From contig NKIQ01000004.1 in the NCBI GenBank assembly GCA_002256005.1, positions 40,451 through 104,450 on the forward strand: a stretch of DNA of 64,000 bases, read 5' to 3'. The stretch comes from Alphaproteobacteria bacterium PA4 (GTDB lineage Bacteria; Pseudomonadota; Alphaproteobacteria; Sphingomonadales; Sphingomonadaceae). Positions 24,621 through 25,602 of the stretch are shown piece by piece (position 1 is the first letter of the stretch; the number at the start of each line of letters is the position of its first letter). The notes under the pieces were generated by a model. That model did no database searches, had not been told where the DNA came from, and worked only from the letters and a program-made list of their open reading frames with translations. The position numbers were made by a program, and so were the translations under genes.

Positions 24621-24639
24621 CAATCGATAATTACGATTG
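24621..24639. promoter_or_regulatory. Dyad upstream of ahpC, possible LysR/OxyR-type site
   Basis: CAATCG and CGATTG form a perfect 6-bp dyad with a 7-base AT spacer (24627-24633), about 115 bases upstream of the ahpC start. A second small palindrome, AATCGATT, lies at 24600-24607. The form ATC-N9-GAT resembles LysR-family boxes; OxyR control is suggested only by the target gene. The dyad also lies directly before the LPOR stop codon. Confidence 0.35.
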
Positions 24640-25602
24640 TGCGTGCAGGCCCGTGAGCCTGGCGGTGAGGTCCCACAGCCGCGCGGCGCGCCTCTGATCA
24701 TTGGCCTTGGCCGACAGCGGCTGGGCAAAGGCCTGGCGGCCGGCCTTCTGGCGGTTGCCCCAGCTCCAGTGCACGCCGGAGCGGATGAAGCCCGGATCGG
24801 CGACGACCTGCGCGACGCGCTCGCCGGACAGCGGCTGGCTGACATAGCCCTTGGTGATGTTCTTCTGGAACCAGGGGAAAATCTTGCGAAATAGCGGCGG
24901 GGCGTGGCGGAACAGTGGCGTTTCGGCGACGCAGCCAGGATAGAGGGTTGAAAAGATGATGCCGGTTTCGGCATGGAAACGACGGTGCAGCTCCCGGCTC
25001 ATGATCATCGTGCAGAGCTTGGAATCCTTATAGGCCTTGCCGGGCTTGAAGGGCTTGCCGTCGATCATCGCGATCGGGTCCTGGAAGCCGGCCTCCAGGC
25101 CCTGCAGCTCGCCGATGTCGGCGGGGGCCGGGATCGGCACCTTGCCGCCGAACTCCTCCGAATTGGCGGTGACGGTGCCGAGCGTTATCAACCGCGGCGC
25201 CTGAGCGCGTTCGAGATTGGGCAGCAGCAGATTGGCGAGCAGAAAATGCCCGAAATAATTGGTGGCGACACTGATTTCATAGCCTTCCGGGCTGCGCATC
25301 GGCGCGGTCAGGCGCGGCAGATAGACAGCGGCGTTGCAGACCAGCGCATCGAGCGGACGCTTCAACGCGTTGAAATCGGAGACGAACTGGCGGACGCTGG
25401 CCAGAGAGCCCAGATCGATATGCAAAAGCGTGCGACGGTCGGACGGGATGCCGACCTCCACCGCCGCTGCTTCGGCCTTGGCAAGATCGCGGCACGCCAT
25501 GACGACATGCCAGCCGCGGTCGGCCAGCGCCTTGGCCGCCCACAGGCCGACCCCGGACGATGCGCCAGTGATGATGACGGTTGCGCTCTTGTTGCCAGCC
25601 AT
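24631..25602 (-). CDS. por: Light-dependent protochlorophyllide oxidoreductase (LPOR)
   Basis: A 323-residue short-chain dehydrogenase-fold enzyme closely matching cyanobacterial LPOR in length and sequence. It would reduce ring D of protochlorophyllide with NADPH and light. Seen: NADPH loop TGASSGVG (12-19), VCNAAVY (88-94), catalytic Tyr191 and Lys195 in AYKDSKLC, Cys224 in [18 protein letters not shown] (242-248) and the LPOR-specific [11 protein letters not shown] near 278-288. Ordinary SDRs lack these last blocks. ATG 25602 gives the normal LPOR N-terminus. LPOR is known from a few aerobic anoxygenic phototrophs. It lies 2.2 kb from bchI on the other strand; unlike the dark enzyme BchLNB it is not oxygen-sensitive. 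Confidence 0.9.

Follow-up and report, generated by a model that had tools for sequence, protein, structure and literature searches.

Why should an anoxygenic proteobacterium carry a gene for light-dependent protochlorophyllide oxidoreductase (LPOR), and why should that gene lie close to bchI? LPOR forms a ternary complex with NADPH and protochlorophyllide, and the reaction that it catalyses is also catalysed by the dark-operative BchLNB, which is nitrogenase-like, ATP-dependent, light-independent and unrelated to LPOR. In this article, we discuss a gene in a stretch of 64,000 nucleotides (the window) of Alphaproteobacteria bacterium PA4, for which an original prediction, made from the letters of the DNA, had proposed an LPOR in a bacteriochlorophyll-a phototroph, gained by transfer and useful in oxygen and light. 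Among the open-licence papers found, judged by titles and the starts of abstracts, PMC7947762 is the sole study devoted to such LPORs; it cites the original Dinoroseobacter paper (Kaschner 2014). The gene in the window is a confirmed, well-placed example of this already described kind, to which we add two observations: its closeness to bchI is atypical in the genus, and two of four cysteines have been lost in many relatives.

Identity of the gene

The open reading frame lies on the minus strand, from an ATG at 25602 to a stop at 24631, and encodes 323 amino acids; the coordinates originally given (24631..25602) are exact and came with no strand. A longer mechanical frame would begin with a GTG at 25761, and the ATG is preferred because it yields the length of cyanobacterial LPORs. 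Against the NCBIfam model TIGR01289 the protein scores 491.1 bits, where the curated equivalog cut-off is 331.35, and its best solved structures are 6l1h and 6rnv (named Thermosynechococcus elongatus), 6rnw and 6r46, the match to PDB 6l1h having an E-value of 3.5e-144 and being colinear over residues 6-320. The active site is common to the window's protein and this cyanobacterial enzyme (TeLPOR), although the host here is an anoxygenic proteobacterium and the sequence belongs to a separate, well-supported clade (100/98).

LPOR is itself a member of the SDR superfamily, and generic SDR models do cover the first half of the protein, so that one could suppose a generic short-chain dehydrogenase that merely resembles LPOR. 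We consider this next to impossible, since the second-best family, a generic oxidoreductase model, reaches 126 bits, under its cut-off of 268, against 491 for LPOR, and since the match to solved LPORs is full-length while the nearest solved SDR beyond them scores only 73 bits. It is these scores that rule out the generic enzyme, as the trees held LPOR rows alone, and they bear out the earlier claim that the gene is no ordinary SDR. The genome has 41 matches to PF00106 (short-chain dehydrogenases) and one to TIGR01289 at E <= 1e-60.

In an alignment of the window's protein with 133 other LPORs (76 cyanobacterial, 57 non-cyanobacterial), the window has the predicted Tyr191, Lys195 and Cys224, from which none of the 76 cyanobacterial and 57 other non-cyanobacterial sequences deviates; Tyr191 and Lys195 form the catalytic YxxxK, kept in all 133 other rows, and Gly13, Gly17 and Gly19 of the NADPH-binding loop GASSGVG are invariant across the alignment. 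The HWSWGNRQ block, also correctly read at the outset, takes this form in 57 of the 58 non-cyanobacterial rows (the window counted) and in 34 of the 76 cyanobacterial rows, the remaining cyanobacterial forms being YWSWGNRQ (36), YYSWGNRQ (4) and YFSWGNRQ (2).

Two enzymes for one step

The prediction had asked whether bchLNB also exist in this genome (2,997,121 bases in 53 contigs, 96.41% complete), and all three do: BchL scores 438 bits (cut-off 345), BchN 514 (420) and BchB 608 (490), with one narrower BchB model below its own cut-off (808 against 912). The genes bchNBH, bchL and acsF lie on contig C9, not on the window's contig. The profile search of the genome also finds BchH, AcsF, BchI, BchZ, PufM, BchC, BchX, BchY, BchO, PufL and PufC, whereas for BchE nothing exceeds the cut-off and for the RuBisCO large chain there is no match in the genome at that completeness. 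A gene rule stated in PMC7947762 defines aerobic anoxygenic phototrophs (AAPs) by BchL/N/B, a type II reaction centre, AcsF and/or BchE, and the lack of RuBisCO (and/or phosphoribulokinase). By that rule the genome, with BchLNB, with PufL and PufM for the reaction centre together with AcsF, and with no match to the RuBisCO large chain, belongs to a putative AAP with both protochlorophyllide-reducing enzymes. The genes for BchLNB, AcsF, BchXYZ, PufL and PufM likewise uphold the proposal of a bacteriochlorophyll-a phototroph. Because the same genome encodes BchL, BchN and BchB, LPOR is a second route, and the candidate reading in which BchLNB was lost and LPOR is the sole enzyme is ruled out here. 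A BchB search across 47 genomes behind LPOR loci (covering 41 of 53 non-cyanobacterial and 6 of 27 cyanobacterial loci, the other 12 non-cyanobacterial ones being of the window's genus or near it) returned BchB above cut-off in 42. The five exceptions have partial matches (G078, G098), weak, BchZ-like matches only (G074, G087) or none (G066), and we claim no LPOR-only phototroph because all five are metagenome bins.

With TIGR01289 at E <= 1e-60 as the measure, LPOR occurs in 19 of 24 genomes of the window's genus (which we take to be Sandarakinorhabdus/Polymorphobacter), whole in 18 and split over two contig ends in one (G003), and in none of 36 sampled genomes of other genera (12 from within the family and 24 from within the order); Erythrobacteraceae outside that sample, of the same order by record title, do carry it (L040, L059, L060, L080). 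The original prediction noted that LPOR has been reported in only some AAPs; in this genus, however, the gene is not rare, and such enzymes were described as a kind in 2020 (PMC7947762). BchB is found in 23 of the 24 genomes, the exception (G019) also being without a bchI match, and four genomes have BchB with no LPOR detected (G005, which is 75% complete, G013, G014 and G018), so LPOR is not needed for phototrophy there.

Taken together, the LPOR identity, the kept catalytic and cofactor residues, the presence of BchLNB, AcsF and a type II reaction centre, and the position in the tree, all read from sequence, indicate that the gene very probably encodes a working LPOR, a second, oxygen-tolerant and light-usable route beside BchLNB. 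Family knowledge suggests its photochemistry, NADPH use and oxygen tolerance: the enzyme would bind NADPH and protochlorophyllide, and light absorbed by the pigment would drive transfer of a hydride from NADPH and of a proton to the C17-C18 double bond. The product, chlorophyllide, would be the starting point from which BchXYZ and later enzymes make bacteriochlorophyll a. The oxygen-sensitive, nitrogenase-like BchLNB would then provide the dark route and LPOR the oxygen-tolerant route in the light. Most likely LPOR would serve to make chlorophyllide when the cell is in light and air and BchLNB, an iron-sulphur enzyme, is at risk; the authors of PMC7947762 likewise speculate that under aerobic conditions a host with LPOR can step up its synthesis of bacteriochlorophyll.

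The window's protein is 76% identical to that of Yoonia vestfoldensis, 77% to that of Erythrobacter (Porphyrobacter) dokdonensis DSW-74 and 72% to that of Loktanella fryxellensis, which we read as the YvLPOR, PdLPOR and LfLPOR reported to be active in vitro and in vivo (PMC7947762). The same source gives activity in 10 of 11 newly tested LPORs of the clade; one lacked activity, two failed in the in vivo assay and one failed in vitro. That some tested relatives fail in one or both published assays could suit a different view of the gene, in which it is an LPOR by descent yet nonfunctional or unexpressed, a relic beside a sufficient BchLNB, and so could the complete BchLNB of the genome and the 4 of 23 bchB-bearing genomes of the genus in which LPOR goes undetected. 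The promoter adds to this: TGTN12ACA, which we take to be the PpsR-type palindrome, does not occur in the LPOR promoter gap, so that control shared with the photosynthesis genes is not indicated. A relic nevertheless seems very improbable, because the frame is intact and no catalytic position and none of the four candidate cysteines has changed, although relatives at 72-85% identity differ at other positions, which would argue for selection. Of 87 distinct stretches upstream of LPOR genes at the loci compared, 6 have the palindrome. Within the whole window it occurs 13 times, against a shuffle mean of 3.98 and with none of 100 shuffles reaching 13; one site lies between bchO and crtC (31519-31536) and another between LPOR and ahpC (24520-24537).

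Ancestry and the cysteines

A quick tree of 134 LPOR rows, from which the window's own copy (L009), the halves of the split gene of G003 (L026 and L027) and rows with identical cores had been left out beforehand, places all 58 non-cyanobacterial rows in one clade (SH-aLRT 99). A careful tree keeps 87 of the 134, the other 47 being near-duplicates, long branches or unstable rows that were removed manually (among them L146, L110, L152, L086, L047, L064, L085, L089 and L092), and supports the non-cyanobacterial clade of AAPs and Gemmatimonadota at 100/98. All rows being LPORs, the phylogeny called for by the prediction puts the window's protein in this clade, where it groups with its own genus, within a mainly alphaproteobacterial subclade of 25 rows (95/96; one row is a bin titled Gemmatimonadaceae) and most closely with three related bins (98/85). 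Our single clade repeats the result of PMC7947762, in which such LPORs form a single group nested among cyanobacteria with picocyanobacteria as sister. The window shares with these AAP LPORs the family (TIGR01289), the clade, the catalytic residues, the company of BchLNB, AcsF and PufLM and the lack of RuBisCO, but differs in having part of the photosynthesis cluster next to LPOR and, from many members, in keeping all four cysteines.

As for the donor, the nearest neighbours of the clade in the best tree are L054, L057 and L062, bins whose titles read Synechococcales or Cyanobacteria, with a support of only 87/46; picocyanobacteria are not recovered as sister, but neither their placement there (AU p 0.35) nor that of Chamaesiphon (AU p 0.109) is rejected. 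The predicted acquisition by transfer fits a clade placed among cyanobacterial LPORs, though more than one donor would be compatible with the tree. From the tree and from published work (PMC7947762), we infer an old transfer of a cyanobacterial gene followed by inheritance within the genus, for the most part at one fixed site on the chromosome, beside the aldolase gene and mtnP. Two separate gains in the genus, hinted at by two score bands, are not supported: one genus clade (including bin L070) is not rejected when Polymorphobacter multimanifer (L041) is omitted (AU p 0.459), and is rejected when it is included (AU p 0.0003) because the L041 protein groups with Erythrobacteraceae. Since L041 LPOR occupies the usual chromosomal place, next to mtnP, a second gain would be a less simple explanation than a transfer to Erythrobacteraceae from the lineage of Polymorphobacter multimanifer. 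The LPOR of L070, a contig titled Gemmatimonadaceae, sits inside the Sandarakinorhabdus clade, which would be a binning error or a recent transfer.

The window's protein has four candidate conserved cysteines (Cys37, Cys89, Cys197 and Cys224), which we read as the four conserved cysteines of the legend to figure 1 of PMC7947762, a paper that describes all functionally important features as conserved. In the other non-cyanobacterial LPORs, Cys89 is absent from 30 of 57 and Cys197 from 19 of 57, with Leu89 and Ala197 occurring together in 17, while both cysteines are kept in 76/76 cyanobacterial rows; Cys37 is missing from 2 of the 57 and from 5 of the 76. Relatives changed at positions 89 and 197 include L032, L040, L041 and L046. 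E. dokdonensis DSW-74 (L040) lacks both cysteines, and this strain is listed as an LPOR bearer in PMC7947762, where PdLPOR is reported active in both assays; if PdLPOR is the L040 sequence, as its name leads us to infer, both cysteines are dispensable. For a possible coupling between the losses of Cys89 and Cys197, which take at least five and at least four changes on the tree, supported branches offer just two independent pairs. A single clade of the 13 rows without both cysteines is not rejected (AU p 0.147), and the two may therefore have been lost together, once.

Photosynthesis genes beside a presumably older locus

Downstream of LPOR by 122 bp lies ahpC, for a peroxiredoxin (23945..24508, minus strand; TIGR03137 339 bits, cut-off 272), and then ahpF (22292..23875, minus; TIGR03140 788 bits, cut-off 503); among the loci compared, many of which have short flanks, L009, the window's own copy, is the only one with ahpC next to LPOR. 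Divergent from LPOR is an aldolase gene (25719..26873, plus), presumably of the D-threonine / 3-hydroxy-D-aspartate kind (NF045642 246 bits, below the cut-off of 690), which is the usual LPOR neighbour in the genus. It is followed by mtnP, for S-methyl-5'-thioadenosine phosphorylase (26870..27727, plus; TIGR01694 304 bits, cut-off 275), which is conserved near LPOR. The photosynthesis block opens with bchI (27797..28813, plus; TIGR02030 480 bits, cut-off 467), bchD (28810..30552, plus; start inferred, named by gene order and tblastn to relatives with no family-model score) and bchO (30549..31430, plus; TIGR03056 305 bits, cut-off 173), and continues with a crtC-like carotenoid 1,2-hydratase gene (31703..32902, minus; NF045922 295 bits, below the cut-off of 400). 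On the plus strand there follow bchC (35407..36393; TIGR01202 401 bits, cut-off 291), bchX (36375..37385; TIGR02016 418, 331), bchY (37378..38904; TIGR02015 713, 425), bchZ (38901..40352, start inferred; TIGR02014 788, 529), pufL (41046..41870; TIGR01157 458, 266), pufM (41882..42853, start inferred; TIGR01115 528, 364) and pufC (42850..43986, start inferred; NF040706 427, 150). A scan for defence families returned none at E <= 1e-10.

The bchI start (27797) is 2195 bp from the LPOR start, in agreement with the 2.2 kb first noted, but such proximity is not typical of the genus. In the 19 LPOR-bearing genomes, bchI is on another contig in 17, where the two genes may still be close if both lie at contig ends (as LPOR nearly does in G004), and 1.02 Mb away in G021, so that LPOR is seen near bchI in the window's own genome alone. 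Usually in the genus, LPOR is divergent from mtnP, with or without the aldolase gene. In G021, G004 and G008 the LPOR/mtnP stretch leads on to counterparts of the window's genes from 48596 onwards, by way of 50306, 51301 and 51942, after about 7 to 15 kb in which none of the bch, crt or puf queries used has a match, and in G023 genes matching 44233 to 47893 directly adjoin LPOR in reversed order. In the window, a block of photosynthesis genes 16.2 kb long, from bchI (27797) to pufC (43986), separates these genes from mtnP. In three relatives photosynthesis genes lie away from LPOR: G011 has bchCXY, crtC, bchIDO, acsF and bchHBNF in one stretch of about 38 kb on a contig other than that of LPOR, and G021 and G004 have bchFNBH and acsF followed by bchIDO, 1.02 Mb from LPOR in the former and on another contig in the latter. 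The simplest reading of this draft assembly suggests that, in the window's lineage, an older LPOR locus gained part of the photosynthesis cluster as its neighbour, and a chimeric contig is unlikely because native genes flank the block on both sides.

One could argue instead that bchI is close because LPOR came along with the photosynthesis cluster or was inserted there, as the 2195 bp in this genome and nine betaproteobacterial or Burkholderiales-titled loci with LPOR near bchI, bchC or acsF would allow. Given that one LPOR-bearing genus genome in 19 shows the linkage, and that in G021, G004 and G008 the LPOR/mtnP stretch continues to genes beyond the window's puf genes, we think such a joint journey highly unlikely and favour movement of the block to LPOR. 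The nine loci (L050, L052, L055, L069, L075, L082, L092, L110 and L111) come from a wider set of 80 kept from 383 encoding a relative, 53 of them non-cyanobacterial by record title. With at least 48% identity to bchI, bchC or acsF in the LPOR flank, they make at least 9 of 53, a lower bound since many flanks are short and a subset of bch and puf genes served as queries; L087 and L095, whose bchO matches are weak (27-29%), are not part of the count. In L082, L110 and L111, of betaproteobacterial title, LPOR stands directly before bchI, the tblastn matches to the two genes lying some 30 to 75 bp apart, unlike the window. A bolder idea, which we consider unlikely, is that the cluster draws an old free-standing LPOR to itself: the roughly 16 kb of bchIDO, crt, bchCXYZ and puf would have moved between former chromosomal neighbours, the LPOR-bch linkage of betaproteobacteria would have arisen separately, and selection would favour co-location or co-transfer of the light-dependent and dark steps.

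With this gene, the LPORs known outside oxygenic phototrophs have one more clear-cut example, and knowledge of the enzyme is unchanged. The 53 non-cyanobacterial loci among the 80 kept sharpen the questions of which cyanobacterial lineage was the donor, why there are two enzymes for one step and which cysteines are needed.
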